DNA of 28,001 bases from a virus: positions 1-28,001 of IMG/VR virus record IMGVR_UViG_3300025438_000103, one strand, 5' to 3'. Below the pieces are notes generated by a model. It was not told where the DNA came from and ran no database searches. It saw nothing but the letters and a program-made list of their open reading frames with translations. This document shows, one piece after another, positions 4,891 to 21,359 of this stretch. Made by a program: the position numbers and the translations under genes. Position 1 is the first letter of the stretch. The number at the start of each line of letters is the position of its first letter.

Positions 4891-4892
4891 GG

Positions 4893-5777
4893 TTACCTAC
4901 CCATCAATGACATTAATCCACCGTAAGCAGCTGTTGGTCTTGGATTGAACATTCCATATAAATTAGCTAACGTTTGTGATGCTGCTAAACCAGGGCTAGT
5001 CATAATCGGTTGTTGAGGGCTTTGAGGTGTACCACTTGCAATTGTTCCATATATACCTGAAGCAGTTCCTAACCTTTGTAGTGGATATTGTTCTTGTAAA
5101 ATATTTCCTTGTTGAATAGCATCTAGAATAGATTGAGAGTAATTTTGCGCTCCTGCACCTGTAGCCCCTAATTGTCCGGTGATACCTGATTCAAAAGCTT
5201 GTTGTTGTTGACCAAAACCTAATTGATTTTGTAAACCTTGTTGTTGTAAACTTTGTGCTTGTGTTAAACCTTGTTGTCTTAGTGCCGCTAGCTGTCCTGC
5301 ATCTGAAATATCTCTACCTCTTAAATATTCTGCTTCTCCAATTTGTCCTCGTCCTTGTCCATAAGCTCCTTGTGCATATTGACCTCCTCGTAATGTATTT
5401 AACCCTGACGCTCGCTGCTCGTTCATTAGTGCTTGAGTCGCGTCAATGACTTCTGTTTGATACGGAGACATATACGATTGATATGCACTTGGCGCAGCTA
5501 AATCTTCTGCTGCTTGTAAATAAGGTTGATATGCTGCAACACCGGTTCCAGCGCCTACTCCTGTTACATCTCCTTGAGGAGAAAATTGTAAGGATCCTAA
5601 TCCTGCTTGCGTTGCGGTTCTTTGTTGAGATGCTTGAATTAATGGATTAACTTGGGAAACCTTAGGCGCCATTCCACCTATATTAACTGGTTGGTTAATT
5701 TGATCTATGGTAAGATCTGTTATTCGTTCACCCGCTGGTTCTAAAAAAGGAGCAGGGGTAGTAATATTATAAGCCAT
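4893..5777 (-). CDS. Gln/Ala/Gly-rich candidate internal virion protein, 294 aa
   Basis: A 294-residue protein of low complexity, very rich in Gln, Ala, Gly and Leu. A run of Gln-rich helix occupies about residues 165-205, followed by a Gly/Ala segment and a C-terminus with Pro and Tyr. There is no signal peptide or hydrophobic helix long enough to cross a membrane. The start ATG overlaps the stop of the upstream gene in a TAATG junction, with a GGAGG ribosome site just ahead, so translation is likely coupled. Podovirus internal core proteins often have this Gln/Ala-rich helical composition, which supports but does not prove a role in genome ejection. Confidence 0.75.
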   Translation of the reverse strand: MAYNITTPAPFLEPAGERITDLTIDQINQPVNIGGMAPKVSQVNPLIQASQQRTATQAGLGSLQFSPQGDVTGVGAGTGVAAYQPYLQAAEDLAAPSAYQSYMSPYQTEVIDATQALMNEQRASGLNTLRGGQYAQGAYGQGRGQIGEAEYLRGRDISDAGQLAALRQQGLTQAQSLQQQGLQNQLGFGQQQQAFESGITGQLGATGAGAQNYSQSILDAIQQGNILQEQYPLQRLGTASGIYGTIASGTPQSPQQPIMTSPGLAASQTLANLYGMFNPRPTAAYGGLMSLMGR

Positions 5778-6844
5778 TAAACACTTCCTCCGTTTTCAAG
5801 TTGTTTCATCATAGAATACATTTTCTGAGCACCTAAGTTAGTGTCTCCACCGCCTGCATTTCTTACTGCATCGGCTGTAAATACAAATTCGTTATTAGAT
5901 AACATCGCAGGGATATCATCCTCCTTTTCTTTTATACCAATTGGCGGAACAAATCCACCCTGATCTCTATAATCTAGTTCTGCAATTCCTTGTTGATTTT
6001 GTCTAGGGTTACCTACCGGCATTCCCATTTGATCTGCTATTTGAGGAGCTGACATAATTCCGTCTTGTACTGAATTTCCATATGCATAACCCATTCTTCC
6101 ACCATTCATTGCAGGTGCTCGTACTACATCGGCTGCAGTAAAAGATGCTCTAGGAGCATTGGTTGCTTCACCTGGATTATATTGTGCTCGTTTACCTGCT
6201 TGAGCGGCTTCAAATTTTGCTTGAATTTCTTCTCTTAATTTATTAATTCTTTTTTGATCTAAGTAACTTAAAGTCGTACCTGCAAGGTAAGTAGCTGCTT
6301 TAAACAACTCTTGCAATGTTTTTGGATCAGCATTCATTAATGAGTTAAATCCTTGTGAAATAAATTCTCCTACACTAGAAGCTCCGCTTTGAATACTCTC
6401 TAGTATGTCTATGCTTTTTACAGATTCAGGTATTAAATTAGTAATCCCGTCAACTCCTCCTGAAATATTACCACCAAGTCTATCAAAAAAAGAAGATGTA
6501 TCTCCAGTTCCTGCTTGGACTTCTCCTCCAAACATTCCCGGTACATTCAAACCATCTGCACCAGTTGCTTTTCCAAAACCATACGTTGCTCCCGCTTGTT
6601 TTACAGCATCGCTGATACTTCCTCGTTGATCAAATCTTCCAATACCTCTCATTGCTGCTGCAATACCTGGTTGAAAAGGTGCAACAAACGGTGCAGCTTT
6701 CACTGCAATATCTGCTATTTCATTAGGTATAATGTTCCTTACGAATTTTTTAAATTTACTTCCAAAGCCGTAGTTCTCTCTTGCTACGCCCATAATTCCG
6801 CCGTTTTGATATAATTGTCTGCTCATCTGTGATCTAGATATCAT
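5777..6844 (-). CDS. Candidate internal virion protein with conserved C-terminal motif, 355 aa
   Basis: A 355-residue protein. The N-terminus is basic and carries a Gly-rich stretch (YQNGG), the middle is mixed helical and Gly-rich, and the last 50 residues contain a DDIPAMLSNNEFVFTADAV-type segment (about 312-330) followed by Gly-rich and Met-rich ends. I recognise this C-terminal segment from many marine phage structural proteins, usually encoded near the end of the tail module, but no biochemical role is established to my knowledge. It is the first gene after the glycosyltransferases, preceded by 79 bases holding a weak promoter candidate, and it overlaps the next gene by one base. Confidence 0.75.
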   Translation of the reverse strand: MISRSQMSRQLYQNGGIMGVARENYGFGSKFKKFVRNIIPNEIADIAVKAAPFVAPFQPGIAAAMRGIGRFDQRGSISDAVKQAGATYGFGKATGADGLNVPGMFGGEVQAGTGDTSSFFDRLGGNISGGVDGITNLIPESVKSIDILESIQSGASSVGEFISQGFNSLMNADPKTLQELFKAATYLAGTTLSYLDQKRINKLREEIQAKFEAAQAGKRAQYNPGEATNAPRASFTAADVVRAPAMNGGRMGYAYGNSVQDGIMSAPQIADQMGMPVGNPRQNQQGIAELDYRDQGGFVPPIGIKEKEDDIPAMLSNNEFVFTADAVRNAGGGDTNLGAQKMYSMMKQLENGGSV

Positions 6845-6898
6845 AATCCTTTAAATATTGTTAGTAATGAAGCAGGCGCAAAAGTCCTGAAAATACAT

Positions 6899-6927
6899 AC
6901 TTTACTTGTTTTTACAGTATAGGTCAA
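6899..6927 (-). promoter_or_regulatory. Weak sigma70-like promoter candidate ahead of the internal-protein genes
   Basis: On the minus strand TTGACC (6922-6927, five of six matches to the -35 consensus) is followed after 17 bases by TAAAGT (6899-6904, four of six to -10). It overlaps the end of the GT-A gene and would serve the gene starting at 6844. In AT-rich DNA such matches are common, so this is tentative. Confidence 0.25.
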
Positions 6928-7754
6928 TCTTTTTTAAAATCAAGATCATCCATAAACCTACCGGTATATCGATACTCACCTATATGAGTAATATATTCAT
7001 CCACTAAAATGTGACATTTACCACCTATTTCAGCCCATCTTTTACAGAATCCAAAGTCTTCTCCGTAGTACTTTTTGGTTTCTGGTTCATGATAACAATC
7101 AAAGAAGTTGTACATAAACTTCTTCTCAACCATTTCACCATTAACAATAGTGGGTTGATTAATTTTTAATTCTGGTAACTTCTCAATCATGGTATCAAAC
7201 ACTTCTTTTTTAATTAACATACATCCGGTAGGAGCATGACTTACTTCTGCTACTCCATTGATTGCAGTTATTTGATTCTTTCCATCTAATTTTAACGGCC
7301 AAGTAAATCCTTGTTTAGACATAGTAGCACCGTCTTGTATATTTTTATATTTAATTCTATTAGCAATCTTATTCCAGTCTAAATCTTTTAATGGATAAGG
7401 AGCAGCTATTACATCTTTTTCTGCTGCTACTAATTTCATAATGGTATCAAAAGAAAACTCAATATCGGAATCAATAAATAACATGTGAGTGTAGGGATGT
7501 TTTTCAAATTCTTCCATAAACGCATTGACACATAAGTTTCTACCTTGCGTTACTAAAGAAGATTTTAATAAAGAAAAAGAAACTAGAATACCATTGACCA
7601 TACATTTTTGTTGAAATGCTAATAACGCTTGAGTGTAATGAATAGAGCATTCGCTATGAACCGGAGTAGCTACAAAGATAGAAGGTAGTTTACTTACATT
7701 AGGTACTTCTTTTTTGTTATCTTTTACCCAGATAGGTTTACTTGGATCTTGCAT
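6924..7754 (-). CDS. GT-A-type glycosyltransferase
   Basis: A 276-residue protein. After a short lead it reads IFVATPVHSE (residues 26-35), the usual first strand of a GT-A nucleotide-sugar fold. A DxD metal-binding motif lies at D95-S-D97 within FIDSDIEF. A GEDFGFCKRW segment (231-240) resembles the acidic ED motif that ends the catalytic site in this fold, followed by H257. Enzymes of this type transfer a sugar from a nucleotide donor; the acceptor cannot be told here. The gene overlaps the upstream GT-B glycosyltransferase by 17 bases, with an AAGGAG ribosome site inside that gene, so the two are probably made together. Lying among virion genes, it may decorate a virion protein or alter the host surface. 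Confidence 0.85.
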   Translation of the reverse strand: MQDPSKPIWVKDNKKEVPNVSKLPSIFVATPVHSECSIHYTQALLAFQQKCMVNGILVSFSLLKSSLVTQGRNLCVNAFMEEFEKHPYTHMLFIDSDIEFSFDTIMKLVAAEKDVIAAPYPLKDLDWNKIANRIKYKNIQDGATMSKQGFTWPLKLDGKNQITAINGVAEVSHAPTGCMLIKKEVFDTMIEKLPELKINQPTIVNGEMVEKKFMYNFFDCYHEPETKKYYGEDFGFCKRWAEIGGKCHILVDEYITHIGEYRYTGRFMDDLDFKKD

Positions 7755-8673
7755 TGATAGCTCCTTTTAAAAAGTTATTCCATAACGAACCAATACGAGT
7801 CCAGTTATAAAATCGGTTAGTATAAATAATTTGATCTTGTAAATGTTTTTGAACAATCTCGTTGTCTAAATTACCTACCGCTGTTTCAATAGCATAGGCA
7901 AAATTTTTAGCTAAATTTGCATACGATTTTTGATAAGGAATATAGGCCGCATATTCTGCACACGTTTCATATAAAGCTCCATAATTGGTAGTAATACAAT
8001 AGAGTCCTGCCGACATAGCTTCGAGCGCCGAGACGCAAGAGGTCTCTTCAAAGATACTAGGATAGGCAAAAATATGATAGTTTTTTAATTGATCTACAAT
8101 ATACTCATTCGATTTATATCCAATGTAATTAACATTGGATAATTTTTTTGCTTGTTCAAACAAACCTTCAAATTGTTGATTGTTTGCTTGTTTAAATTGA
8201 TCTCCGTAAATTTCGGTAGAAGAATAAACATCTAAGGTGATGAGGGGATTTTGAATCATTTGCATTGCTGCTAGTATCACATTCAATCCTCTCCAAGGAG
8301 TAGGTTGAAAGATAAGTTTGATGGGATCCCCTTTTTTGTAAACTAAATTTCTAGGTGTAATTTCTGGAATTCCGTTTTTAATAACCAAACATCGTTCGGT
8401 AGGAATATCAAAATGCATTCTATATTTTTCATAGTTCCAATGAGAATTAAATACATACCAATCATATTTAGAATGATTCGAAGTATCTTTAAACCAAGGT
8501 GCTAAATTAGCTTGATCATATGAATTATGTTGCCATAAGATATTTACTTTATCTTTAGACAAAGGAATTTTTTCAGGAACGGAAGTAGTAATTTGAACTT
8601 GATCTAATAGTTCTTTATCTACATGTCTTTCTAAGAACTGCATTTGCAGTTCGGTTCCACCAAGTGGCTGCAT
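7738..8673 (-). CDS. GT-B fold glycosyltransferase, GT4-like
   Basis: A 311-residue protein. It starts close to a PLGGTE motif (residues 3-8), has an NG pair (100-101), a W-R-G-L stretch in the donor-binding half (127-130), and the GT4 signature E210-x7-E218 inside a segment ending SALEAMSAG. The conserved Rossmann-type beta strands are visible around 44-49 and 118-123. It is short for GT4 enzymes, which usually have 350 or more residues, because the first strand before the GGTE motif is missing. The start ATG lies in a TAATG junction with the small upstream gene and the ribosome site is weak, so coupling to that gene is likely. Substrate unknown. Confidence 0.85.
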   Translation of the reverse strand: MQPLGGTELQMQFLERHVDKELLDQVQITTSVPEKIPLSKDKVNILWQHNSYDQANLAPWFKDTSNHSKYDWYVFNSHWNYEKYRMHFDIPTERCLVIKNGIPEITPRNLVYKKGDPIKLIFQPTPWRGLNVILAAMQMIQNPLITLDVYSSTEIYGDQFKQANNQQFEGLFEQAKKLSNVNYIGYKSNEYIVDQLKNYHIFAYPSIFEETSCVSALEAMSAGLYCITTNYGALYETCAEYAAYIPYQKSYANLAKNFAYAIETAVGNLDNEIVQKHLQDQIIYTNRFYNWTRIGSLWNNFLKGAINARSK

Positions 8674-8852
8674 TATTTTTGTCCCATTATTTTCTGTAAA
8701 AGATTTAATCCTTCATTGGTAACGGTCACTGCTGTATCGACTGCTAAATCGTCTTCAGCATGATGTTGTAAAAACTGTTCCTTTGTTTCATACGTCTTAT
8801 TAGTAGACTTACTTCTAAAGGTGTGTTTCGTGGTCGTTTCTATTTTATCCAT
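8673..8852 (-). CDS. Small protein of unknown function, 59 aa
   Basis: A 59-residue reading frame that fills the space between the upstream 111-residue gene and the GT4 gene. Its ATG lies eight bases inside the end of the upstream gene and its TAA shares one base with the next ATG. The protein starts with a charged, Thr/Lys-rich part, has a His-His-Ala-Glu-Asp-Asp stretch near residue 30 and ends with a short amphipathic helix. I do not recognise a family. The tight overlaps on both sides are the main reason to believe it is translated. Confidence 0.65.
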   Translation of the reverse strand: MDKIETTTKHTFRSKSTNKTYETKEQFLQHHAEDDLAVDTAVTVTNEGLNLLQKIMGQK

Positions 8853-9180
8853 TCTCTTGTGATCTGTCTATTAACATGTAAGACACTGCTCCGCTAACGG
8901 CATCAGCAGTACTCGCTTGCACGCTTATAGCATCTCCTGCTTCTAAATTCAAGGTATCTACTAATAGATTTGCAGTAGATTTATTTAATTGTGCATGACC
9001 TATTTGAACCGCACTTGCACCATTCTTAGTAAGAAAAAGATCTGTATCTACATTACTAGCAGTATCATGAACCGCTTGTACCGTTTTAACAATAGCTACA
9101 GAAGAAGTACTTACGGATAATACAATAGTTACATTAGTAGTGGTTAAATCAAATGTATTGCTTTTAAAAAAATTTGCCAT
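8845..9180 (-). CDS. Small beta-rich structural protein, 111 aa
   Basis: A 111-residue protein with alternating hydrophobic and Thr/Ser residues, the pattern of a beta-sandwich, with no Cys, no membrane segment and no signal peptide. It begins immediately after the stop of the preceding small gene. Small beta-rich proteins of this size next to tail-nozzle genes are common in marine podoviruses and are usually taken as minor tail or decoration proteins. The assignment is by composition and position only. Confidence 0.65.
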   Translation of the reverse strand: MANFFKSNTFDLTTTNVTIVLSVSTSSVAIVKTVQAVHDTASNVDTDLFLTKNGASAVQIGHAQLNKSTANLLVDTLNLEAGDAISVQASTADAVSGAVSYMLIDRSQENG

Positions 9181-9345
9181 TTACGTTAAAAACCATTCTA
9201 TTTGCGCTTGTTCATTTTTTAAATCTTTTTGATAACCAAAGTTTAACTCATTCTTTAATGTATTCAACCCTTCGTTCAACTGTCGTTGATTAAACACATC
9301 ATATTCTTCTCTTGGTTCTGGAATCACTGCAGTAATTTTTGCCAT
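9181..9345 (-). CDS. Small helical protein, 54 aa
   Basis: The frame could be extended upstream through a non-ATG codon, but the natural start is the ATG at 9345. It overlaps the stop of the nozzle gene by one base (TAATG) and has an AGGAGG-type ribosome site inside that gene's last codons. The 54-residue product has a Pro-rich lead, then a charged amphipathic helix rich in Asn, Leu, Lys and Glu, possibly a short coiled coil. No known family is recognised. Its setting between nozzle and beta-rich proteins suggests a minor virion or assembly role. Confidence 0.65.
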   Translation of the reverse strand: MAKITAVIPEPREEYDVFNQRQLNEGLNTLKNELNFGYQKDLKNEQAQIEWFLT

Positions 9346-11285
9346 TATCTTCTTCCTCCTGCATGAATATCTAACCTCAAGGTTCCATATCTCCAAGTTT
9401 CATCCTGACCATCGTTTTCTATTTTTAAACTAACCTGCCTACCTCTAACCCTAGTGCTTACAAAATTAGTAGTGGTACTAATAGTAAAAGGACCAGTAAT
9501 TAAAGATCCTGAAGCAGATGATTGTGAATCGGTGGCTGGATAGTTAGTAAAGAACATGGTTACTTTTGCATTTCCACTTAAGTTTTTAAAGTCTGGTATA
9601 AATCTAGATACTCTCATAATATATTCACCATCTCCTGCAATTCCTTGTTCGGAAATATCATAATCCCCTGACAAAATATAAGAAGCAATAGCAGTAGTAG
9701 ATCCTCCAGCGGTTACTTCATTGGTCCCTGTTTCTTGAGCCCAGTACTGAGAAGAACCATATCTATTGGTTACCCCTTGAATGGCTGGGAAGCTCGGAGT
9801 TCCATTAGTAGTAAATTCAGTAGCGTAGGGTAAATCATAGGTAGTAGCATCATTATAGGTAGTTCTAGATAAAGAACCGGTAGTCCAACTTTGTTCGATA
9901 AAGTTATATACTACATTCCTATTAATTTGTTGCGAGCCGCTCGCTGCATAGTACCAACCCACTTCATTAAATAATGAGTTGTGATATCCATAGGTAATTT
10001 GATTAGCATCATAATTAATTCCTAATCCATCTCCTTGAGTGGTAAATACAAAATCTTCTACTAAGGATGGAAGTTGTTTTACCGTTCCATCGTACATAAA
10101 AAATCCACCACCAAAACCCATCCAGTACACCGCTCCTTGTGCATAGACGGCAGTGTGTTGCCCTAAACATCCACAGTTGGAACCAACTTGTCTTAATGAA
10201 AAAGTGTAAGGAGTTCCCACAAATTGTATTACATAAGCTGCTTGATCGGTTAACACTAATACATAATCTTTTCCTTGTACGGCTGTTACGATTTCATTTC
10301 CTTGGTCAAGCAAGAAAGTACCTGCTGTATTAGTCGCGGTAGGAGCCCAAGTATTAATATCTTCTTGATTAGAAAAACGTACCAACATTTTGTTTTGTGT
10401 AGAAGCATCTCCGACAGTAGTTTCGGTTCCCATTAAAAATAAATGTCTATCTCTGTCAGAAACTAAACTCATTAATGATCTAGTAGGAGCATCTGCTACG
10501 ATAGCAGCTCTCGTTTCTAATGCTGCAGGCTCTCCTGCTAAAGGAGTCCAAGTATAGGTAGAACCGTTTCTAGCAGTTGCAACTAACAACTGTCCATAGT
10601 TATCGAGCGACCAGGAGCCAGGATCTAAGACCACGGTAGAAGCAGATCGTGCAGTTCCCCATGCTTCTCTTCCATAAGGACCGGTTCCAAATCCATAAGC
10701 GGGGGTTTCAAATACAGGACCAATGGTTACATAAGGCGTAACCGTTGCAGAACCTTGAGTAGACATACCTGAACCAGATTCGGTAGTAGACATAGTAATA
10801 GTAAAATCATCATCATCTGTGGAAGTAACTTCATAAGTATTGTTAGTAAATTGACTAGCTGAAAAACCTGTTTCACCCCCAGTAGGTAAGGTAATACTAG
10901 TAAAAATAATATAAGAACCGTTTGCAACTCCATGAGCTACTTTATTAACCGTAACGGTTGCTGATCCAGTAGTAGAAGTAAAGGTAAATCCTGTAATAGG
11001 GGTCTCTAAAGGAGTAATATCATAAAACGCTCCTTCATAATAAATAACTAGCACTTTAGAAGTACCTAGTGCTGCGTATCGAACACCAGTTAAATCAGTC
11101 CAAGTGTGTTGTCCTCTGACAGGTCCTGCTATGGTAGAGTTAACTAATTCTTCCCAACCACCTATTTTTTCAGGTTGGCCGTATCTAAAACGTACGTTAT
11201 CACCGTCTACCCATTGCCCTTCGGCACCGGTTTCGGTCTGTTGTTTGTTGAATCCAGGCTTAAATTGTATCTTCTGTAATGGCAT
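9345..11285 (-). CDS. Tail nozzle-like protein (P22 gp10 / T7 gp12 type)
   Basis: A 646-residue beta-rich protein. The N-terminal part, with a GFNKQQTETGAEGQWVDGDN-type segment (residues 11-30) followed by VRFRYGQPEKIGGW, is a pattern I associate with P22 gp10-like tail proteins that close the channel beneath the portal and carry the fibres. An extra beta module with an HGV motif (118-120) is inserted at about 100-187. Repeated blade-like segments follow, with a Cys-Gly-Cys pair in the middle and a basic C-terminus ending HAGGRR. The length is within the range for this family. There is no clear ribosome site at the usual distance; a 13-base inverted repeat lies between an AAAAGG and the ATG. 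Family membership is inferred without a search. Confidence 0.65.
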   Translation of the reverse strand: MPLQKIQFKPGFNKQQTETGAEGQWVDGDNVRFRYGQPEKIGGWEELVNSTIAGPVRGQHTWTDLTGVRYAALGTSKVLVIYYEGAFYDITPLETPITGFTFTSTTGSATVTVNKVAHGVANGSYIIFTSITLPTGGETGFSASQFTNNTYEVTSTDDDDFTITMSTTESGSGMSTQGSATVTPYVTIGPVFETPAYGFGTGPYGREAWGTARSASTVVLDPGSWSLDNYGQLLVATARNGSTYTWTPLAGEPAALETRAAIVADAPTRSLMSLVSDRDRHLFLMGTETTVGDASTQNKMLVRFSNQEDINTWAPTATNTAGTFLLDQGNEIVTAVQGKDYVLVLTDQAAYVIQFVGTPYTFSLRQVGSNCGCLGQHTAVYAQGAVYWMGFGGGFFMYDGTVKQLPSLVEDFVFTTQGDGLGINYDANQITYGYHNSLFNEVGWYYAASGSQQINRNVVYNFIEQSWTTGSLSRTTYNDATTYDLPYATEFTTNGTPSFPAIQGVTNRYGSSQYWAQETGTNEVTAGGSTTAIASYILSGDYDISEQGIAGDGEYIMRVSRFIPDFKNLSGNAKVTMFFTNYPATDSQSSASGSLITGPFTISTTTNFVSTRVRGRQVSLKIENDGQDETWRYGTLRLDIHAGGRR

Positions 11286-11327
11286 AATAGTATTTATAAT
11301 ACCTTTTGAACCTAAAATAAAGATGTT

Positions 11328-12359
11328 TTATCTTGCTGTTCCTGGTATTCCTGTTGAAGTTACAAAAGGAGAAGAAGCAAATGCCATGTAGATGTAATTG
11401 TTTCCTGAAGCATTAAAGTCTGCATTAGTAAATCTCCATTTAAAACCATTGGATAAGAAATCAGCAAAAGTTGTATTAGATGTATCTTCAGTACTGTTTG
11501 TATTTGGAGCAAGAATATCTGATTTACTATTATAACCTGCTCGTCTATTGTCAAACATAGACCAATTTGATGCATAACCTGTATCTTTAAACATTATAAA
11601 AGCTGGTTTAAATCCTGTGTATATAAATGTACCATCAGCATTTCCGTTCCCTGTGTATGAGCCAAATTTTGAGTAGCCTTTAATTTCTGCAAAGCAGTAA
11701 GCTATCATAGTATTATTATTATTGGTTTCGTTTCCAGCACCAAGAGTAACTACTGAACTAGATGGAGTAGTATTATTCCACCCACCAATTGATGTATCTC
11801 CAGCACTAGTACTGTTTAAAAAAATTCTTCTAGTATTACCTAAACTTGAGTGATAACAAGTCCAATCCCATGCCGCAACAGCTCTATTTTTAACTATTAC
11901 CATTGAAGGTGCAACACCTAACCCATGTCCAATAGTTGCACCAGCAGTTAAATTACCCGTATAACTTACAATACTAAATCCAGCGGTTGTATTAGCTGAA
12001 ACACTAGAAGTAATTGAACCATCAGAATTAGATGATGCTGAACCACCACCTAACCAATTCCAAGATGCGTAAGTTGCTGAACTTGTATTATAAGAGCCAT
12101 CTGTACCAACTGTAAAACCATCTGTACCAAAAGCTGTTAATCCTTGTGCTACAGTTTCTTCTGCACCAGTATCATTTGAACTTAATTCTTTTGTTACTCC
12201 TCTTACTGAATCTGTTAATACATGCTCAGTTGCACCACTTCTACCTTTAATCCATGTAAGGTCTGGGGTGAAGTTGACCCCAGTTATTGATTGTGTAGCA
12301 CCAGTACCAGTGTAAAGTTTAGTATTAAAATAATCTGAGGGTTTATTTATTTGTGCCAT
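11328..12359 (-). CDS. DUF7483-like tail fibre/adhesion protein, 343 aa
   Basis: A 343-residue protein rich in Ser, Thr, Gly, Asn and aromatic residues, with repeated elements of the type FTPDLTWIKGR, APSMVIVKNR and KPAFIMFKDTG and a C-terminal segment ending MAFASSPFVTSTGIPGTAR. These are marks of a domain, DUF7483 as I recall it, found at the ends of many marine phage fibre proteins. The gene has an AGGAG ribosome site and follows the LamG/SPRY fibre gene by 27 bases. In other phages the two parts can lie on one chain; here they are separate genes. Its CpG content is far below that of flanking genes, in common with the next two genes upstream. Likely role: receptor contact. Confidence 0.75.
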   Translation of the reverse strand: MAQINKPSDYFNTKLYTGTGATQSITGVNFTPDLTWIKGRSGATEHVLTDSVRGVTKELSSNDTGAEETVAQGLTAFGTDGFTVGTDGSYNTSSATYASWNWLGGGSASSNSDGSITSSVSANTTAGFSIVSYTGNLTAGATIGHGLGVAPSMVIVKNRAVAAWDWTCYHSSLGNTRRIFLNSTSAGDTSIGGWNNTTPSSSVVTLGAGNETNNNNTMIAYCFAEIKGYSKFGSYTGNGNADGTFIYTGFKPAFIMFKDTGYASNWSMFDNRRAGYNSKSDILAPNTNSTEDTSNTTFADFLSNGFKWRFTNADFNASGNNYIYMAFASSPFVTSTGIPGTAR

Positions 12360-12386
12360 TAGCTGTACTCCTGTGCGTTAATTGAT

Positions 12387-13832
12387 TTAGTCATAATTAA
12401 ACTCATTTAAGTTTTTTGTACAAAGTGCATAAAATTTTTTTGCTGCACCATCTCCAGTAATGTTTGGCGAATATTCAAACGCACCATATCCATTATCATC
12501 TGCTATTGCTGTGTCTGCTAAAGCTTGAAAACCATTACCAAAATTAACTTCAAATACAGCCGCACCACCAGTATTATAATCTCCTACAAATGGAATATAA
12601 TGACCTGTTCCATTACTTGCCAAAGCAGTTAAAGCAATACCAGTTCCACTATTTTCAAGTGTACCATTTTTACTCCAATAAGTTTTCATATCTTCAAGAT
12701 CAAGATAAACTCCTAAAATATCTCCAGCAGCATATGAACTTAATGTAGCAAGAGTAATGCTACCACCAGATCCATTACCTGATTGTAATGTTCCACTTTT
12801 ATTCCAAGTATGAGTAAAAGGTGTAACACCCCCAGATTTTCCATAAGAAGAGTTTTGATGAGAAGGTGTTGCAGTTACACCAAGATTTGCTGTACCACTA
12901 GCACCTATTGAAATACAATCAACTTCAAAATACCAACGACCAGCAGATACAGCAAAAGTTGCTGTACTCATAGCTTCTGCACTAGCATCAGTTGTAAGTT
13001 TTATATTGCCTTCTGCAAAAAGAGCACTAGCATAATAATTATCTAAAGGATTCATGGTTGCAAAATTATTAGTAGGTGTGTCGGTAGTCTGGTCTACTGC
13101 TGTTAAATTATTAACTGTAAAATCATTACCATTACCTGATGTATCTGCACCTAAAGCACCGCTATCTTCAAAGTCTAAATAGAATCCGTTAGTACCAAAG
13201 GTTAATCCAGAAACATCTATTGGTTTCCATATTCCACTATCTTCATCAAATTCTCCAAAGTCTGTAGGTGCTAATGCTTGACCATCTATACCATAAACAT
13301 CAGACATGTAGCCGTCTAAATACCCTGAACTTCCTCCATAAGAACCTAAATAATAGGTATATGAACTTGTACCAAGTCTTAAGTCTTCATTTAATGAAGG
13401 ATAAATAGCTGTAACAAAAGAAGTTTCTTGAACTCCATTAACATATATTTTAACTCTATTAGAAGCTGTTGCTTGTGTAGTGTCCATAGCAACTACAATA
13501 TGATACCAAGCTGATACATCTCTAAATAATCTATTTGTAACTAAAATTATTGTGTTACTACCACCACTTCTATTACCGATACTTAGTCGTTGAGAACTAT
13601 CAAATAATATCTTTATTCTTTCATCTATAGAATAATAACTTAAGAATAATGTATTATCACCGTCAGGGTTTTGACATTTTTTAACCCATGTTGAAAAAGT
13701 TTGTATTTTTCTATTAGTCCCTGTAGTTGGAACTTTTGATAAATAATCTGAACTAGCAGAATTAAATCGTAAAGAATTATCTACTGTATAACCACCTGCT
13801 GATAGAGAGTTAGCTGGTAAGATAAAAGGCAT
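12387..13832 (-). CDS. Tail fibre protein with LamG-like and SPRY-like domains, 481 aa
   Basis: The N-terminal half (about residues 20-185) has the concanavalin/LamG pattern: FSTWVKK, then WYHIVVAMDTT with RVKIYVNGV (109-134), then YLDGYMSDVYGIDGQ. The C-terminal half (about 297-432) has the SPRY pattern: GRWYFEV, a GANLGV-like strand, and GDILGVYLDLEDMKTYWSKNG (370-390). Both folds bind sugars or proteins, so the product is a good candidate for host receptor binding. There is no cleavage or hydrolase motif. It lies one base after the stop of the 218-residue gene and belongs to a CpG-poor three-gene cassette. Domain calls are from motif recognition, not a profile search. Confidence 0.8.
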   Translation of the reverse strand: MPFILPANSLSAGGYTVDNSLRFNSASSDYLSKVPTTGTNRKIQTFSTWVKKCQNPDGDNTLFLSYYSIDERIKILFDSSQRLSIGNRSGGSNTIILVTNRLFRDVSAWYHIVVAMDTTQATASNRVKIYVNGVQETSFVTAIYPSLNEDLRLGTSSYTYYLGSYGGSSGYLDGYMSDVYGIDGQALAPTDFGEFDEDSGIWKPIDVSGLTFGTNGFYLDFEDSGALGADTSGNGNDFTVNNLTAVDQTTDTPTNNFATMNPLDNYYASALFAEGNIKLTTDASAEAMSTATFAVSAGRWYFEVDCISIGASGTANLGVTATPSHQNSSYGKSGGVTPFTHTWNKSGTLQSGNGSGGSITLATLSSYAAGDILGVYLDLEDMKTYWSKNGTLENSGTGIALTALASNGTGHYIPFVGDYNTGGAAVFEVNFGNGFQALADTAIADDNGYGAFEYSPNITGDGAAKKFYALCTKNLNEFNYD

Positions 13833-13833
13833 A

Positions 13834-14490
13834 TTAAACTACCTCTTTTGGAAATTCTCCAAGAGGTCTAGTAACTGTACCATCATCTTGCATTGTGTAG
13901 GTAAGTAAAGTTATAAGAGTATTTACATTGGCACAATTATCTATTGCAGTTTCCATTGCATTGACTTTAGTTCTAACTGCTGCTCTGTAAGTAGTAACAG
14001 CACTAGGTACTGAATAATCTGAAACTTCGGTTGCCTTAACCACATACCAATCTGTAGGAGCTAATAGACCAGCTGCTTCTAAATTAAAACCTGTTTTGTA
14101 TTTTGTTTTTAAACCAGTGGTTACAATTTGATTGCCTTTTTCATCATTCATAGGATCACCTGCAGAAGCACCTTCTGGTGAGCTTTCGTTATCTACATCT
14201 TCTTGTGTCCAAACTTCATTCGTGTCTGTTAGTTTTTTACCAACAGCAGTTCCATAAGAAGCAGTAACTACTCCATCTGCATAATTAAAAGATTGATTTG
14301 TATTAATGTAATAGTCTTCATCTTTTTTATTAGAACTATCAAAGACTACTTCATAAATTCCAATAGCTTCTTTTTCAGCTACAGACCATTTACTAAATAT
14401 GTCTGCTGGGTATTGATTACCATTAAGAGTAAATCCTTTAGGGTAACTAAAGTATTTTGTGATTGTTTCGTCTATGACTAATGTGTACAT
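13834..14490 (-). CDS. DUF4376-like / tail-fibre-associated protein, 218 aa
   Basis: A 218-residue protein. The first part contains an aromatic-rich stretch and is acidic through about residues 85-115; the last 80 residues have a DWYVVKATEV segment followed by a helix with TYRAAVRTKVNAMETAI, the arrangement seen in DUF4376-type proteins that sit next to phage fibre genes and are often annotated as fibre assembly factors. An AGGAA ribosome site lies close to the ATG. It is the first gene of the CpG-poor cassette. A structural role rather than a chaperone role is equally possible. Confidence 0.6.
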   Translation of the reverse strand: MYTLVIDETITKYFSYPKGFTLNGNQYPADIFSKWSVAEKEAIGIYEVVFDSSNKKDEDYYINTNQSFNYADGVVTASYGTAVGKKLTDTNEVWTQEDVDNESSPEGASAGDPMNDEKGNQIVTTGLKTKYKTGFNLEAAGLLAPTDWYVVKATEVSDYSVPSAVTTYRAAVRTKVNAMETAIDNCANVNTLITLLTYTMQDDGTVTRPLGEFPKEVV

Positions 14491-14497
14491 AATATTC

Positions 14498-15502
14498 CTA
14501 TGATAAAGTTAATGCTAAATTTCTTCCAACTTCTAACCATTTTGTTCCATTGTATCTAAAAGTAAATACATCTCCAAGACTAGCTGTTGCTGTTAATGTT
14601 GGTGCAGTATCCGCTGCAAATTCATATATTGCGTTCCATGTAATAGTTCTTCCGCCAGTTCCATCTTGAATAACTAATAGAGAAGCAAATTGACCTGTAC
14701 TTCCATTGGTAGGTGCGTTTAAAGTTCTGTTTCCACCGAGTGTTACTGCGGACACAGCTTGTGTTGCCATATCCCAATCAATCGTAGCACCATCTGTTAA
14801 AGTGGTTTCAGCTAAGTATGCTTTGTCAGCTAGCAGTGTGCCAGTAACATCAACTACCCCTGTTCCTTTAGGAGTTAAAGTTATTCCAATATTAGAGTCA
14901 TCCCCTGTCGCAGATAAAATAGGTGCAGAACCTGTTGCATTATTTGTAATAGTAAATTCATTAACTGCACTTGCGGTTTCTGTAAAGTTTAAGAGTTGTA
15001 AAGTTCCATCACCTAAACCAAATGTATTAACATCTAACATACCACCGAGCTGTGGAGAGGTATCTTGAACAACCGCTGTAATACCTGCAGTTAAACCTGT
15101 ATCCACAACATTAGTTCCATCAGAATACAATAATTTAGTACCTTTATCAGTAGTACTAAAGGTAGCTCCCGTACCAGACGCTGTTTTAACTACTACGTCA
15201 TGAGCTCCTGAAGTTGAGTTTCTAACGATATAGGTTTTTTCAATTGCATCTGGAATAATAACATTAACAGAAGTAGTAATCGTTCCTGTTAAATCAAGAA
15301 CTGCATTTTTACCATCAGAAATAGTTCCATTGGAAAAAGTTAAAGTTACACCGGTAGTCGCATTTAATGGAATTGCTTCATAACCAGCAATGGCTTGTTG
15401 TACGATGTTTAAATTGGTATTAGTAATATCTCCCCATAGACCGGCTTTTTCACCAGTGACCATGAGTTCTAGTTTTAAATCTCCAGAATAGCTTGATGGC
15501 AT
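14498..15502 (-). CDS. Short tail fibre-like protein, 334 aa
   Basis: A 334-residue beta-rich protein. The N-terminus (about 1-45) has an LKLELMVTGEKAGLWGDITN stretch and a helical NLNIVQQAIAGYE segment that I recognise from phage fibre N-termini that attach to the tail. The middle consists of Thr/Gly/Val-rich strands of a beta-helix type. The last 80 residues (LGGNRTLNAPTNG, then DVFTFRYNGTKWLEVGRNL) match the common end domain of such fibres. Its CpG content is like that of the tail genes upstream, unlike the cassette that follows. It may be the adaptor or trunk on which the exchangeable fibres sit. Confidence 0.7.
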   Translation of the reverse strand: MPSSYSGDLKLELMVTGEKAGLWGDITNTNLNIVQQAIAGYEAIPLNATTGVTLTFSNGTISDGKNAVLDLTGTITTSVNVIIPDAIEKTYIVRNSTSGAHDVVVKTASGTGATFSTTDKGTKLLYSDGTNVVDTGLTAGITAVVQDTSPQLGGMLDVNTFGLGDGTLQLLNFTETASAVNEFTITNNATGSAPILSATGDDSNIGITLTPKGTGVVDVTGTLLADKAYLAETTLTDGATIDWDMATQAVSAVTLGGNRTLNAPTNGSTGQFASLLVIQDGTGGRTITWNAIYEFAADTAPTLTATASLGDVFTFRYNGTKWLEVGRNLALTLS

Positions 15503-15540
15503 ATTTTATATAATTCCTTAATTAATAGTTTTTATTCAAA

Positions 15541-16404
15541 TTATGCGGCTGTGTCAATATTATTCCAAGTGACATTAGATCCGGTAGAAACTTCAGTATA
15601 CGCTACAGAGGTGCCTGTGTCAACGATTGTCCATATCTGAGACACTTCATTTCCAAGCTCTAAAGTTAACTGATTTCCTGTTAATAGTACGGATCCTGAG
15701 ATCGTAAAAGTAACACTTCCTGCAGTCGTATTAATCTGTTGTCCAGTAACATCTACTAGAGTATTGGCATCTAAAACAGCGGTTCCTAAAGTAGCACTTA
15801 TTTGTTGACCGGTTAAAGCCACATCCGGTGCTACATCTACGGTTCCTACAGCTGTTGATAATTCATTTCCTACAACCGGTATATTTGCAATACCTCCTAT
15901 GACTACATTTCCAGTATCGGTTTCTAAAACAAAACCAGTTAAATCTGCAAAGGTAATAGCATCGAGCGTCGCGGTGCCAGAGACAATAGATAATTCATTA
16001 CCGGTAACATTAAATGCTACATCGGTTTTACCAATAGCATCTCCTAAAGAAAGTGGGATTTGATTTCCAGATGCCATAGCATCCGGTGAAGCGTCTACAG
16101 AACTTAATGCAAAAGCAGCAGTAACACCTGTTGGTGAAGCAATTGTCAAAAGATCTAATGTAGTATCTCCAAGATCTAAATTTAATTGTGAACCGGTAAT
16201 AGGAACTTGAGTAGATATAGAATTGTTTCCCCAGTCAAGAGTACCCCAACCGAGTTCTCTTCCCCATCCTGAATTTAATTCTACAGTAGTAGTTACGTCT
16301 CCTTGAGACGTACTTAATTGAGTACCAGTGACAGATATACTTACATCACTTTGTTCTCCCCAGCTGTTTATTCCCCAGGTTAGTGTACCCCAAGTATTGA
16401 CCAT
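15541..16404 (-). CDS. Tandem-repeat tail protein with 22-residue period, 287 aa
   Basis: A 287-residue protein made almost wholly of a repeat with the core [VIL]-T-G-x-[QE]-[LI] and a Gly about eight residues after the TG. The TG or equivalent pair falls at residues 26, 70, 92, 112, 134, 156, 178, 198, 220 and 242, so the spacing is 22 with two steps of 20 and one of 44. Two Trp-Gly clusters, at residues 5-16 and 47-59, interrupt the N-terminal part and a Trp-containing segment ends the protein. The regular period implies a beta-solenoid or stacked beta-hairpin rod. No enzyme motif or Cys. Likely a fibre or tail spike component; no family name is recognised. Confidence 0.7.
   Translation of the reverse strand: MVNTWGTLTWGINSWGEQSDVSISVTGTQLSTSQGDVTTTVELNSGWGRELGWGTLDWGNNSISTQVPITGSQLNLDLGDTTLDLLTIASPTGVTAAFALSSVDASPDAMASGNQIPLSLGDAIGKTDVAFNVTGNELSIVSGTATLDAITFADLTGFVLETDTGNVVIGGIANIPVVGNELSTAVGTVDVAPDVALTGQQISATLGTAVLDANTLVDVTGQQINTTAGSVTFTISGSVLLTGNQLTLELGNEVSQIWTIVDTGTSVAYTEVSTGSNVTWNNIDTAA
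15649..16335 (-). repeat. Coding tandem repeat, about nine copies of a 22-residue unit
   Basis: Within the 287-residue gene the unit of 66 bases recurs from about residue 24 to 252. The repeat is clear at protein level; the DNA copies are diverged, so it is not a recent tandem duplication. The step between the first and second recognisable cores is 44 residues, and the Trp-rich insert lies there in place of a normal copy. Confidence 0.7.
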
Positions 16405-16420
16405 AATAGGTTAGCTCCTA

Positions 16421-16861
16421 TTAGTTGCCGATTCTTAGAATAGCTGCTGAAGTGGTAAATGCTGGAAACTGAATTGTAAAAGTTCCTGAAGTCGCTGCTT
16501 TGTCTGCACCAAAATCTAATACTGCCACCGCTTTGTTAGTCGATGAAGTATTATAAATTAAAGCTCCTCTAGCTGTGATCGTTACACCCGTAAAAGATAA
16601 ATCTGCAAAATCAACAATCGCAACACCTGATGAGACTGAAGTACTTGGATTTGGTTTTACTAAGGTTCCACCGCCGGCAGCATATTGTCCAGAATTTGGA
16701 ACTTCATTGGTAGAAGCATATGCCGTAGTAGTAGAATTTAACGTTGCATCAGAAGTGTACAGAGCAAGTTTAAAAGTATCACCACCAGAAAATTGAAACG
16801 TATGTTCCCCTTCTAGTAGTTCTTGTTTAAAACTGTTTGCAACCGCTTGTGTTATAGCCAT
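16421..16861 (-). CDS. Beta-rich virion protein, 146 aa
   Basis: A 146-residue protein. An N-terminal helix (residues 1-20) is followed by FKLALYTSDATLNSTTTAY and then alternating strands ending in TFTIQFPAFTTSAAILRI. I recognise this pattern from small proteins encoded beside tail fibres in many marine phages, where the function is unknown. The ATG follows an AAGGAG ribosome site. It stands between the adaptor and the 22-residue-repeat protein. Role inferred: minor tail or fibre-joint protein. Confidence 0.65.
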   Translation of the reverse strand: MAITQAVANSFKQELLEGEHTFQFSGGDTFKLALYTSDATLNSTTTAYASTNEVPNSGQYAAGGGTLVKPNPSTSVSSGVAIVDFADLSFTGVTITARGALIYNTSSTNKAVAVLDFGADKAATSGTFTIQFPAFTTSAAILRIGN

Positions 16862-16871
16862 AGTTTACTCC

Positions 16872-17537
16872 TTATTTTTGTTTTCCGACTTTCGGAACTC
16901 CTGTTTGGAATTCATCAGTTCGTCTTCTTCCCATTTGCTCAATTGTAAATCCTTGTAGAGCTTGTTGATATTTACCTTCATAATATTGAATCATATCAGC
17001 TGGACCTTTTAAAAATCCAAAAGCCTCTACTAGGCATGCATACAATAAGCCATTAGGAAATTCTGTACTTAAGTATGTAGTGGTATTACTACTAGATAAT
17101 CCCTCTGGTTTCAAGATATAATTTATCTGCATGTTATAATTTATATCTGGGGTAGGAGCCACCACAATGGTGTTCTCATCCCAATAACTGTAATATCTAG
17201 GTAATCCTTGTACTCCAGTAGGATCATACTCCGACATGAAGCTGGTATCCCTAAAATCTAAAAAATATCTATCTGAATTATCTGCTCCACCGGTAGAGTT
17301 AGTAATTTGACAAGACCTGATTATTAAAGTTTGATTATTAATAAGAGGGGTACTTACAAATCGTTGCCCTGCTATAATATCTGCTTGTGCATATTGTCTA
17401 TTATTATCAGAGTCTACGTCTCTTAAAAGTCTAAATTCAGTATCTGAAAGAAAGCCATCTACAATAGTAGAGGTAAATACATTGGCATCTACTTCACAAT
17501 AATCTCTAATTTTTTGTACTAATTCTGCATATGTCAT
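16872..17537 (-). CDS. Head-tail adaptor protein (SU10 adaptor-like), 221 aa
   Basis: A 221-residue protein that begins with the helical pattern MTYAELVQKIRDYCE, continues with a helix containing ID/FLSDTEFRLLRDVD, a strand region with PRYYSYWDENTIVVAPTPD (about 120-140) and a C-terminal helix with YYEGKYQQAL. This order matches phage adaptor proteins of the SU10 type that sit below the portal and join it to the tail. It overlaps the previous gene by one base in a TAATG junction, and no clear ribosome site precedes it, so its translation is probably coupled. Length is normal for the family. Assignment is by pattern only. Confidence 0.7.
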   Translation of the reverse strand: MTYAELVQKIRDYCEVDANVFTSTIVDGFLSDTEFRLLRDVDSDNNRQYAQADIIAGQRFVSTPLINNQTLIIRSCQITNSTGGADNSDRYFLDFRDTSFMSEYDPTGVQGLPRYYSYWDENTIVVAPTPDINYNMQINYILKPEGLSSSNTTTYLSTEFPNGLLYACLVEAFGFLKGPADMIQYYEGKYQQALQGFTIEQMGRRRTDEFQTGVPKVGKQK

Positions 17538-18139
17538 TATGGTTGTAAAGTAATTGGTCCTGAACTACAGCCAATTCCTCCTCCTTGTACATTTCCAAAA
17601 GTAGCCGTTCCCGGTATTTGGAAATAATAATAATTTAAAACATCTCCTACAATTCCAGAAGAATTTATTTGTCCTACGGTAATAGTATAACCGTTTTCAT
17701 TATCAATGTCACTGATTGAGTCAAAAGTAGGAATCGGATTAAAGTAATATAAATCGTTATCATTAGTTGGATCAGGTATAATAGGACCGGTAGGAGGACT
17801 ACCTGCTAAACCTCTAAATCGAACTGTATTGCCAGTGCTTAATCCATGATTTTGAGAGTTTACATTAATATAAGTACTTCCAGAATATAAAATAGTTTCA
17901 AATGGATTAGGAACTAATAACACAGTAACCGGTGGTTCTTTACGATCGGGTCTAGCAAATTGTAAACCTTGTGCATCGGTACCTGCTGGTCTTGGATTTA
18001 ATTGAGGTTGTTTTGATTCAAACTCAGAAGTATGAACTCTTGCTCCATTCCACTCTACTACCATTTCTTTGTAAGGAAATGCCATACCACTTCTATCGGA
18101 AATAAATTGTGCAAATTTTCCTCTCGATAAATTAGTCAT
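17537..18139 (-). CDS. Conserved connector/tail protein with beta module, 200 aa
   Basis: A 200-residue protein. The first 60 residues contain SDRSGMAFPY and EMVVEWNG, a pattern shared by many phages for a small protein encoded between head-completion and adaptor genes. The second half (about 85-170) is a beta module with NHGLSTGNTVRF, similar in style to the module inside the nozzle protein. A TAATG junction joins it to the 316-residue gene, with AGGAG four bases ahead of the ATG. Its exact role is not known; position suggests it belongs to the neck. Confidence 0.65.
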   Translation of the reverse strand: MTNLSRGKFAQFISDRSGMAFPYKEMVVEWNGARVHTSEFESKQPQLNPRPAGTDAQGLQFARPDRKEPPVTVLLVPNPFETILYSGSTYINVNSQNHGLSTGNTVRFRGLAGSPPTGPIIPDPTNDNDLYYFNPIPTFDSISDIDNENGYTITVGQINSSGIVGDVLNYYYFQIPGTATFGNVQGGGIGCSSGPITLQP

Positions 18140-19089
18140 TAGACTCCTGGGTAATAAGTTCGTGGACTAATATAAGAACTAGCAGAAGAACCATCTTCTT
18201 GTAAAGCTCTTAGTAATTCATCCTCGTATAATAATTTTAATTCTTGTACACGTTGAGGTGCTAATTTTTGTGCTAAATAATAAGTAAGTCCTGAACACAT
18301 TGCCGGAACAAATCTATACACTATATCCGAAGCGTTCGTGTACGATCCTGCATCTTGTATTCTTTTTACAAAAAAGAAGTTAATAGTATTTCCTGCTTCC
18401 GTAGCACTAGGTGCTAGATATAAAGTAACCGATACTCTATCAATAAGTCTTTGAACAAAATATTGAGTAGGAGTTCCTTGTTGAGACTTAGCCGATAAAC
18501 CTTGATAGGTTGATCTGTCAATTTTAGTCAAAGGAAAATCTACTTGAGTAGAATTTCTATAAGAAGCTTCTAACATATCGTCATAACCATATAAAATAGT
18601 TGCATGGTCGTATACGACATCATCATCCGCGTGACTAGCTGCGGAAGTACTATTCGCGCCACGAGTGGCTCCGGTTAAACTAGTAGTGTCTGAATTTTGT
18701 CCTGAGTAAGTAATCTGTTCTGTTCCAATTAAAATAGTTCCAGAAGTAGGAAACCCTACTAAAGAATTTAAAGGAATAGTGGTCGCTGTATCATTAATGG
18801 CTGCGGATAAACTATTGAAAACCCCACTGGAAGTTCCATCAGAAGGAGATCTATAAAAATTATAAACGATTTGACCTTGAACTAAAGTAAAAGAATTATT
18901 TTCTACTTCCCAAAATTTAAGACCTCTGTTTCCCCATTCTGAAAATAAAATATTTAAAGAACGTCTAGAAGTTCTCATGTTATTTCCAGACATAGGATTT
19001 AATCCTAATCTTTCAAAAGCTTCCGTGATAACGTCATCAATGAAGAAATTCTTATCCCAAGTATATGTGCCGGAAGTAATGTTAGTCAT
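18139..19089 (-). CDS. Head completion/tail accessory protein (P22 gp4-like), 316 aa
   Basis: A 316-residue protein. The helical N-terminus (about 16-60), with DDVITEAFERLGLNP, RRSLNILFSEWGNRGLKFW, resembles P22 gp4-like factors in which two helices pack under the portal. Residues about 94-162 form an inserted beta module (IPLNSLVGFPTSG, ILIGTEQITYSG, TGATRG, AASHADDD) that is frequent in phage structural proteins. The C-terminal part has a strand pair and a helix ending in LKLLYEDELLRALQ. It starts eight bases after the preceding gene with an AGGAG ribosome site. The gp4-like call comes from motif order, without a search. Confidence 0.6.
   Translation of the reverse strand: MTNITSGTYTWDKNFFIDDVITEAFERLGLNPMSGNNMRTSRRSLNILFSEWGNRGLKFWEVENNSFTLVQGQIVYNFYRSPSDGTSSGVFNSLSAAINDTATTIPLNSLVGFPTSGTILIGTEQITYSGQNSDTTSLTGATRGANSTSAASHADDDVVYDHATILYGYDDMLEASYRNSTQVDFPLTKIDRSTYQGLSAKSQQGTPTQYFVQRLIDRVSVTLYLAPSATEAGNTINFFFVKRIQDAGSYTNASDIVYRFVPAMCSGLTYYLAQKLAPQRVQELKLLYEDELLRALQEDGSSASSYISPRTYYPGV
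18604..18810 (-). other. Inserted beta module inside the head-completion protein
   Basis: Residues about 94-162 interrupt an otherwise helical protein with a Thr/Gly/Ser-rich beta segment that has the recurrent pattern T-T-I-P-L, G-F-P-x-S-G, I-G-x-E-x-I-x-Y, T-G-x-x-R-G and A-A-S-H. Modules of this style occur in unrelated phage virion proteins, which suggests it can be gained or lost independently. Confidence 0.5.
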
Positions 19090-19097
19090 TTAGACTC

Positions 19098-19415
19098 CTA
19101 CCCTGCTGTTAGACCTGGACCAGAATATTTATCTGTTAATAAAGTAACTGCAGCTACTGTAAAAGTAGAAACATAAACTCCTTTTGGAAATAAAATTCCA
19201 TCTTCAGGAAAAGAAAAATTAATAATATCTCCTGCAGGGACATCCGCTTGGAATAATGTGTCTCCAGTTGCACTGGTAGTTTTTAAAATAACAGTACCGG
19301 ACGTTGCTAGTCCTGCAACAACAATTCCTCTTAGTCTTACAGGTGGTGCTACGATTACATTGGTAGTTTCTCCTGCAATTCTTGTTGCTTGTATGTCTGC
19401 TTTATATGAACCCAT
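19098..19415 (-). CDS. Small beta-rich virion protein, 105 aa
   Basis: A 105-residue protein of alternating hydrophobic and small polar residues, with an RLRGIVVAGLATSGTVILKTTSA-like middle and a DIINFSFPEDGILFPKGVYV segment, consistent with a compact beta barrel. No Cys, no membrane segment. An AAGGAG ribosome site stands seven bases ahead of the ATG, directly after the UUCG-loop hairpin. Proteins of this size and pattern in this position are common in marine phages and unnamed. Decoration or neck protein is a reasonable guess. Confidence 0.65.
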   Translation of the reverse strand: MGSYKADIQATRIAGETTNVIVAPPVRLRGIVVAGLATSGTVILKTTSATGDTLFQADVPAGDIINFSFPEDGILFPKGVYVSTFTVAAVTLLTDKYSGPGLTAG

Positions 19416-19431
19416 TTTATTCTCCTTAGTA

Positions 19432-19453
19432 AAGAGCTCCCGAAGGAGCTCTT
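19432..19453 (-). terminator. UUCG-capped intergenic hairpin, possible attenuator
   Basis: On the minus strand AAGAGCTCC, loop TTCG, then GGAGCTCTT form a perfect nine-pair stem closed by the stable C(UUCG)G tetraloop. Only three T residues follow before ACTAAGGAG, the ribosome site of the 105-residue gene, so it is a poor full terminator. It may act as partial terminator or as a 3' stabiliser for the 104-residue gene. Confidence 0.7.
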
Positions 19454-21345: not shown

Positions 21346-21359
21346 AATTTATTCTCCTA

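Follow-up and report, generated by a model that had tools for sequence, protein, structure and literature searches.

Genes of the cassette and their products

The window analyzed here is a virus contig of 28,001 bases (IMG/VR record IMGVR_UViG_3300025438_000103, positions 1 to 28,001), and the subject is a group of three adjacent CpG-poor genes beside a fiber gene, referred to below as the cassette. An earlier note, made from the sequence alone, had proposed that these genes were exchanged as a unit and came recently from a donor of different composition. From its homologous portal, capsid, and tail genes, the backbone of the window appears to be that of a pelagiphage of the HTVC023P/HTVC027P type, and the HTVC023P-type lineage has been described (PMC9599517). 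Amino acid identity to HTVC027P is 71% for the portal, 81% for the capsid, and 54% for the phrog_3287 protein, and HTVC027P covers 68% of positions 20431-27933 at 71.6% nucleotide identity. Phages of this type have SAR11 hosts and genomes of about 58-61 kb; by analogy with the isolates, the host is probably a SAR11-type ocean bacterium. The genes of the cassette, with product lengths in amino acids (aa), are as follows.

11328-12359, minus strand: DUF7483 protein, 343 aa, CpG-poor cassette gene; Pfam PF24299 at 428 bits (cut-off 27), profile positions 1-330 of 330
12387-13832, minus strand: LamG/SPRY-like protein, putative adhesin, 481 aa, CpG-poor cassette gene; assigned by profile and fold matches
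13834-14490, minus strand: 218-aa protein, weakly tail-fiber-assembly-like, CpG-poor cassette gene; phrog_4912 "tail fiber assembly" at E 1.4e-4

The Pfam match bears out the DUF7483-like name given in the earlier note. The protein was modeled with AF2 (AlphaFold2) at a predicted local distance difference test score (pLDDT) of 94.9 and consists of three tandem homologous beta domains, the thirds matching each other by hhalign with E of 6e-12 to 1e-14 (the second and third segments overlap by 13 residues). Structure comparison with the PDB produced no confident match (Foldseek at best E 0.015, Z at best 5.2), which does not establish a new fold, and weak profile matches to kappa-carrageenase and CanA were obtained (E 5e-4 to 5e-3).

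For the second protein (model pLDDT 84.7), the SPRY part of its name holds by profile (PDB profile search, E 2.6e-11) and by fold (Foldseek E 5.6e-10, template modeling [TM] score by target 0.74), although the Pfam SPRY family PF00622 scored 23.7 bits, under its cut-off of 26.3. The LamG part, looked for in the N-terminal half, may correspond to a Foldseek match to laminin LG4-5 (E 2.5e-8) at low TM over the whole chain, and Pfam LamG gave no match. The DUF4376-like name proposed for the 218-aa protein is unsupported, with no Pfam family matching up to E 10. The order fiber, 218-aa, LamG, and DUF7483 recurs in many contigs, and the folds together with the position beside the fiber gene point to a putative host-surface attachment or receptor-binding role of the cassette.

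CpG deficit and codon choice

An exact count gave 24 CpG in the 3163 nucleotides (nt) of 11328-14490 (7.6 per kb, observed/expected 0.26), of which 7 lie in the DUF7483 gene, 12 in the LamG/SPRY gene, 4 in the 218-aa gene, and the 24th between genes. The samples on either side hold 45 (14521-16380, 0.67) and 35 (9361-10800, 0.62), so the hand counts of about 23, 45, and 35 in the earlier note were close to exact. The entire window has 614 CpG (0.68), with the flanks at about 0.70. In a change-point scan, the strongest CpG-poor segment was 11251-14600 with a log-likelihood ratio of 25.2, a value that neither 500 permutations nor 500 block bootstraps (500-bp blocks) reached; outside it, the best CpG-poor segment of the window had 5.2. 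The change points at about 11.25 and 14.5-14.6 kb agree with the steps predicted at about 11.3 and 14.5 kb, and the edges fall close to gene borders, as had also been claimed, in CpG-free gaps at 11235-11541 and 14470-14611, the final CpG on the CpG-normal side being at 11234.

With amino acids fixed and codons drawn from the flank genes, CpG amounted to 0.25 (DUF7483, z -4.6), 0.31 (LamG/SPRY, z -4.8), and 0.23 (218-aa gene, z -3.5) of expected, and the minimum among the other 25 genes examined was 0.43. The codons GCC, TCC, ACC, GTG, and TTG, which end in C or G and contain no CpG, were also rarer in the cassette, so that codon choice is generally different there. It thus still differed from the flanks after amino acid content was controlled, a point on which the earlier note had staked its claim, and amino acid content is ruled out as the cause by the same test. 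Together, the scan and the amino acid control establish that the deficit is real, local, and synonymous. Elsewhere in the window, the genes at 22006-22464 and 23458-23955 are CpG-rich for their amino acid content (2.0 and 1.7 times expected, respectively).

Replacement of the block between near-identical relatives

Three contigs, L002, L003, and L005, are 98.5% identical to the window over positions 1-11286 and 97.5 to 97.7% identical from 15101 on, but bear no resemblance to it in the interior. The features that border or complete the exchanged region are as follows.

9345-11285, minus strand: phrog_3287 virion structural protein, conserved flank; phrog_3287 at E 2.7e-76, best segment with 100% amino acid identity in L002-L005
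11219-11285, minus strand: downstream junction zone in the first phrog_3287 codons; window and L002 differ here, followed by identity, in the base-level alignment
14498-15373, minus strand: variable C-terminal part (C-part) of the fiber, swapped with the cassette relative to L002, L003, and L005 by alignment; CpG 0.59; 98% identical to L213
15374-15502, minus strand: conserved N-terminal 43 residues of the fiber, upstream junction at their end; a single mismatch to L002 between 15560 and about 15374, beyond which the sequences diverge; phrog_31104 match to residues 1-216
15541-16404, minus strand: hypothetical protein of 287 aa forming the conserved upstream flank of the slot; within the 97.5% block 15101-19452 common to L002 and L003; 1.02 of expected CpG

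In place of the cassette, the three contigs carry genes for a short fiber, two glycine-rich proteins, and proteins of 120 and 162 aa, together with three genes whose products read as 2-oxoglutarate (2OG)-Fe(II) oxygenases, only two of which match Pfam above the cut-off. Relatives with unrelated genes between conserved flanks had been predicted by the earlier note, and these contigs fit that description; near-identical phages with unrelated genes at the locus, along with the lectin-like folds of the cassette, also liken it to host-recognition hypervariable regions or metaviromic islands. The alternative cassette varies as well, the second glycine-rich protein having 296 aa in L002 (6380-7270) and 111 aa in L003 (6380-6715) through internal shortening of a repeat-like region.

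Past the junction at 15374, a weak similarity between window and L002 persists to about 15100. Relative to the 98.5% relatives, the swapped block extends from about 11.22-11.28 to about 15.37 kb (about 4.1 kb) and takes in 291 of the 334 residues of the fiber protein. The fiber C-part was swapped too, yet its CpG is 0.59; the CpG-poor part is therefore a subset of the swapped block. The alignments place an exchange slot between the first 43 residues of the fiber and the first phrog_3287 codons, in which close relatives carry unrelated gene sets: the fiber C-part, the assembly-like protein, LamG/SPRY, and DUF7483 in the window phage, and 2OG-Fe(II) oxygenases in most of its closest relatives. 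Repeats and attachment sites were sought at the junctions, where 11100-15600 contained nothing beyond short and weak repeats, the longest of 34 nt at 71%, and promoter-like and terminator-like sites in 8700-16600 were not above those in shuffled sequence (24 versus 28.5 and 3 versus 3.8, respectively).

The best-placed relative with the same three genes in a similar backbone is L140/L213. Its fiber C-part is 98% identical to that of the window, and the high identity ends at about 14.22 kb inside the 218-aa gene. The three cassette proteins share 68, 46, and 57% amino acid identity with the window, and five backbone pieces share 59, 80, 81, 86, and 88%; the cassette genes of L213 are CpG-poor (0.32, 0.33, and 0.23) in a backbone of 0.66. 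The contrast between the fiber C-part and the lower values of backbone and cassette indicates that the C-part was exchanged alone within the lineage, and it has a separate exchange history among HTVC023P-type phages. The nested junction near 14.22 kb makes the block a mosaic and not a single clean unit. Of the proposed exchange of three genes as a unit, the transfer is supported but the unit was drawn too tightly, given the larger swapped block (about 11.22-15.37 kb) and this nested junction. Nor was the identity of the three genes equal to that of the flanks, an outcome raised in the earlier note, the cassette in L140/L213 being at 46 to 68% versus 59 to 88% for the backbone. Recency of the transfer can be claimed only with respect to the divergence from these near-identical contigs, L002, L003, and L005.

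Composition match and kin of the cassette

The dinucleotide profile of the cassette (CG 0.26, CA/TG 1.21) is that of the CpG-poor pelagiphages HTVC104P, HTVC011P, Greip, HTVC204P, and Skadi-7 (loci L289, L297, L293, L288, and L292; CG 0.14 to 0.31, CA/TG 1.16 to 1.24; three of the five represented by 9- to 14-kb stretches), and not that of the window flanks (CG 0.73, CA/TG 0.97) or of SAR11 DNA (CG 0.61, CA/TG 1.03). Intermediate CpG was found in HTVC121P (0.43), HTVC202P (0.44), HTVC023P (0.53), and HTVC027P (0.55). The SAR11 values describe 67 loci (288 kb) of environmental genomes found by probe, not the isolates' own hosts; they remain from 80 listed of at least 120 stretches once loci lacking any N-free 1-kb piece of less than 35% G+C were set aside, a filter that removed rRNA-like pieces. 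A source of SAR11-like composition is unsupported, as the SAR11 loci at about 0.61-0.62 are nearer to the window flanks than to the cassette. A cellular source was also sought by scanning genome contigs for DUF7483, which gave 11 pattern stretches and no confirmed relative.

Among the relatives listed (in each of three sets the best 80, of 455, 147, and 175, with more distant relatives under-represented), the ten nearest proteins lie in contigs without window-backbone genes in 6 cases for DUF7483, 9 for LamG, and 5 for the 218-aa protein. The kin of DUF7483 and LamG are thus found mostly in contigs lacking the backbone genes of the window. In a quick tree of 132 DUF7483 rows, from which pieces shorter than 300 aa or containing a stop, identical ones, and four window copies were dropped, L131 is the partner of the window (support 96); L225, L129, and HTVC202P join the two in an open fork (support 88), and none of these four has window-backbone genes. 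Mapping the backbone label onto this tree takes 31 changes, of which starred branches force at least 10, and 40 in shuffles.

HTVC202P and many contigs that lack window-backbone genes have the fiber C-part, 218-aa, LamG, and DUF7483 genes in collinear order; the order is different in some, e.g., L065. In HTVC202P (L286, 26008-27484), the LamG/SPRY homolog corresponds to the annotated gp49 and gp50, which overlap by 41 nt, through a frameshift or because the gene is genuinely divided. L225 and HTVC204P both resemble HTVC010P and share 95.8% identity over 8.3 kb, followed by a changed 4.7-kb slot (L225:8300-13090) and by 94.9% identity over the last 409 nt of available sequence. Both slots contain diverged LamG and DUF7483 genes (68% nucleotide identity for DUF7483), and that of L225 has in addition a 218-aa homolog and a weak fiber C-part match. 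This pair represents a comparable swap in a different lineage.

Slot contents and CpG across backbones

Slot contents were surveyed over the nearest 4 kb of each slot in 54 loci, including the window, after L012 and loci with less than 3 kb before phrog_3287 were dropped. Oxygenase-type slots were found in 50 of the 53 close relatives, some of them also with glycine-rich proteins; two slots were of neither type, and one (L065) held a DUF7483 cassette in a different gene order. Because of this predominance, the cassette is by parsimony a likely newcomer in the close kin of the window. The oxygenases beside the fibers (L002:7326-9416 and the 50 slots) perhaps serve in protein hydroxylation. Mean CpG of the oxygenase-type slots was 0.44, against 0.42 beyond the slot, and the slot was lower in 20 of 50; the slot as such is therefore not CpG-poor, and a slot that is CpG-poor whatever its content is ruled out.

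Cassette CpG was compared with its surroundings in 106 loci, from which window copies, cassette spans above 4500 nt, cassettes below 1200 nt, remainders below 2500 nt, and repeated cassette starts were dropped. In HTVC027P-like backbones, the cassette was at 0.41 versus 0.56 for the surroundings and lower in 24 of 27 loci (p 3e-6); in other backbones, the values were 0.35 versus 0.36, and it was lower in 44 of 79 (p 0.23). The class rule of this set differs from the one used for the tree and for the amino-acid-controlled comparison. In the latter, which used each locus's own codons and dropped loci with less than 2400 nt of other open frames, median CpG relative to expectation was 0.50 for the cassette and 0.81 for a control gene in 19 HTVC027P-like loci, and 0.59 and 0.52, respectively, in 90 loci of the other class, the control gene being present in 17 and 76 of them.

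Origin of the cassette

A foreign composition in a place where near-identical relatives have unrelated genes argues that the block was swapped in from another phage. The genes very probably constitute a host-recognition (adhesion) cassette in an exchange slot of an HTVC023P/HTVC027P-type pelagiphage. The transfer from a donor of different composition, as the earlier note had it, is supported by flanking homology, composition, and kin, with no donor identified. Two phages would have met in a co-infected SAR11-type cell, and recombination in the conserved sequence at the slot borders would have exchanged the resident genes for a set belonging to a CpG-poor phage lineage. The CpG deficit would then be a mark of that origin not yet ameliorated. 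The conserved N terminus of the fiber would hold the protein on the virion, the surface structure that is bound may change with the new C-part and the lectin-like proteins, and the new set may have been kept because it altered or restored host recognition.

Several results weigh against this account. No close donor was found, the best proteins, at 63% (DUF7483), 56% over part of the length (LamG), and 72% (218-aa), being on different contigs. The 218-aa protein has as many of its nearest kin in contigs with window-backbone genes as in contigs lacking them, and some contigs counted as lacking window-backbone genes are short. With 31 changes versus 40 in shuffles, the backbone label is partly clustered on the DUF7483 tree; the nearest kin on it, L131, has a less CpG-poor DUF7483 gene (0.53), and the nearest isolate, HTVC202P, has intermediate CpG overall (0.44), though its cassette is CpG-poor (0.25). 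The cassette is also present in more distant HTVC027P-like contigs. The amino-acid-controlled difference between the two classes of cassettes is modest (0.50 versus 0.59, p 0.03). Classes were assigned to fragments from their homology to the window, so that a few assignments may be wrong; L109 and L186 have a capsid-protein match yet were classed as other in the 106-locus set.

The source could also have been a CpG-poor member of the same HTVC023P-type lineage and not a different pelagiphage group, which we consider rather unlikely. CpG beyond the slot spans 0.26 to 0.73 among the surveyed loci of the wider lineage, so that a CpG-poor relative of the same type could have supplied the genes; L140/L213 points to exchange of the fiber C-part within the lineage, and 5 of the 10 nearest relatives of the 218-aa protein carry window-backbone genes. 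Opposed to such a source are the nearest kin of DUF7483 (6 of 10) and LamG (9 of 10) in contigs without those genes and the oxygenase-type slots in 50 of 53 close relatives.

An improbable alternative is a deficit intrinsic to these protein families, through selection on adhesin genes or codons, that is separate from the swap. In 26 of 33 contigs, DUF7483 homologs are lower in CpG than the remainder of the contig, and the cassettes of MEP301 (0.33 versus 0.66 for the surroundings), HTVC202P (0.25 versus 0.47), and HTVC121P (0.28 versus 0.47) are CpG-poor within CpG-richer sequence. The same genes are, however, CpG-normal in CRP-811 (0.87) and C72C1 (0.88), as are their surroundings, and in contigs L103, L109, and L139; in the 79 contigs of other backbones cassette CpG is on average like the surroundings, and in the three genes of the window the deficit remains after control for amino acid content. 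An assembly chimera of two viruses joined at the slot is scarcely credible: the contig is metagenomic and its composition step coincides with the homology break, but L012, another IMG/VR contig, repeats both the cassette and the arrangement with 3 mismatches in 19495 nt, none inside the cassette (though it possibly comes from a related sample), L140 has the same gene order in a different backbone, and the junctions fall within continuous reading frames.

Under the preferred reading, a swap from another phage, the locus is a clean case, with base-level junctions, in which a phage from an abundant ocean lineage had its host-recognition cassette replaced and is 98% identical to its relatives elsewhere; it is thereby tied to a cassette circulating through several pelagiphage groups. 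Swapping of such cassettes is a known route by which phages change host recognition. Several pelagiphages are depleted in CpG far below SAR11 (0.14 to 0.31 versus about 0.61), with an excess of CA/TG, which is tentatively attributed to a phage-side process; if exchanged cassettes keep this mark, CpG could trace the lineage of a host-recognition gene and offer a possible means to infer the direction of exchange. As part of the same tentative proposal, DUF7483 may be a single-chain three-fold cap fitting a trimeric fiber, and that fit, if real, would explain why DUF7483 occurs in many unrelated phages. Among the open-licence papers searched, none pairing pelagiphages with CpG, or SAR11 phages with CpG dinucleotides, was found, and none mentioning DUF7483.

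Comparison with known systems

The type of event is already known: exchange or variation of such genes has been published (PMC10504331, PMC3909814, and PMC7029224), as have modules common to distant phages (PMC10579305). A close likeness is the hypervariable region of Skadi-1 and HTVC010P-type phages. In Skadi-1 this region, at 13,646-15,713, was found by under-recruitment of reads (PMC10504331) and falls on the DUF7483 (13353-14408) and SPRY (14408-15730) genes, the same pair as in the window, labeled there as an uncharacterized protein and a lectin-domain protein. Skadi-1 belongs to another phage lineage, the evidence there is recruitment whereas flanking homology is used here, and the available portion of that report describes neither a composition signal nor transfer between lineages (PMC10504331).

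Metaviromic islands are described with genes for carbohydrate-binding, tail fiber, lectin-like, Fe(II)-dependent oxygenase, tail fiber assembly, and gp38 adhesin proteins (PMC3909814), types that resemble the cassette of the window and the L002 alternative alike; those islands were defined by read recruitment and the slot of the window by sequence comparison. Pelagimyophages have a host recognition cluster (PMC7029224), a hypervariable island with tail-fiber genes in SAR11 phages as in the window, but they are large T4-like phages with a mean island of 44.6 kb, and for one pair gradual divergence rather than complete replacement was described.

In HTVC023P-type pelagiphages, the lineage of the window, whole gene clusters cross phage families (PMC9599517); that work concerns auxiliary genes of curli and the type VIII secretion system (T8SS), and the terms "tail fiber", "LamG", "CpG", and "receptor" do not occur in its main text as available. 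The Alteromonas phages A5, V22, and P24 have a syntenic module of fiber and assembly protein common to morphologically distinct phages (PMC10579305), like the module of the window. Binding was shown there by experiment, and in modules of that type the assembly protein serves as a chaperone, whereas the module of the window is known from sequence and folds, and the likeness is one of module type. To these systems, the present locus adds base-level junctions, CpG as a candidate tracer, and the triplication within DUF7483.

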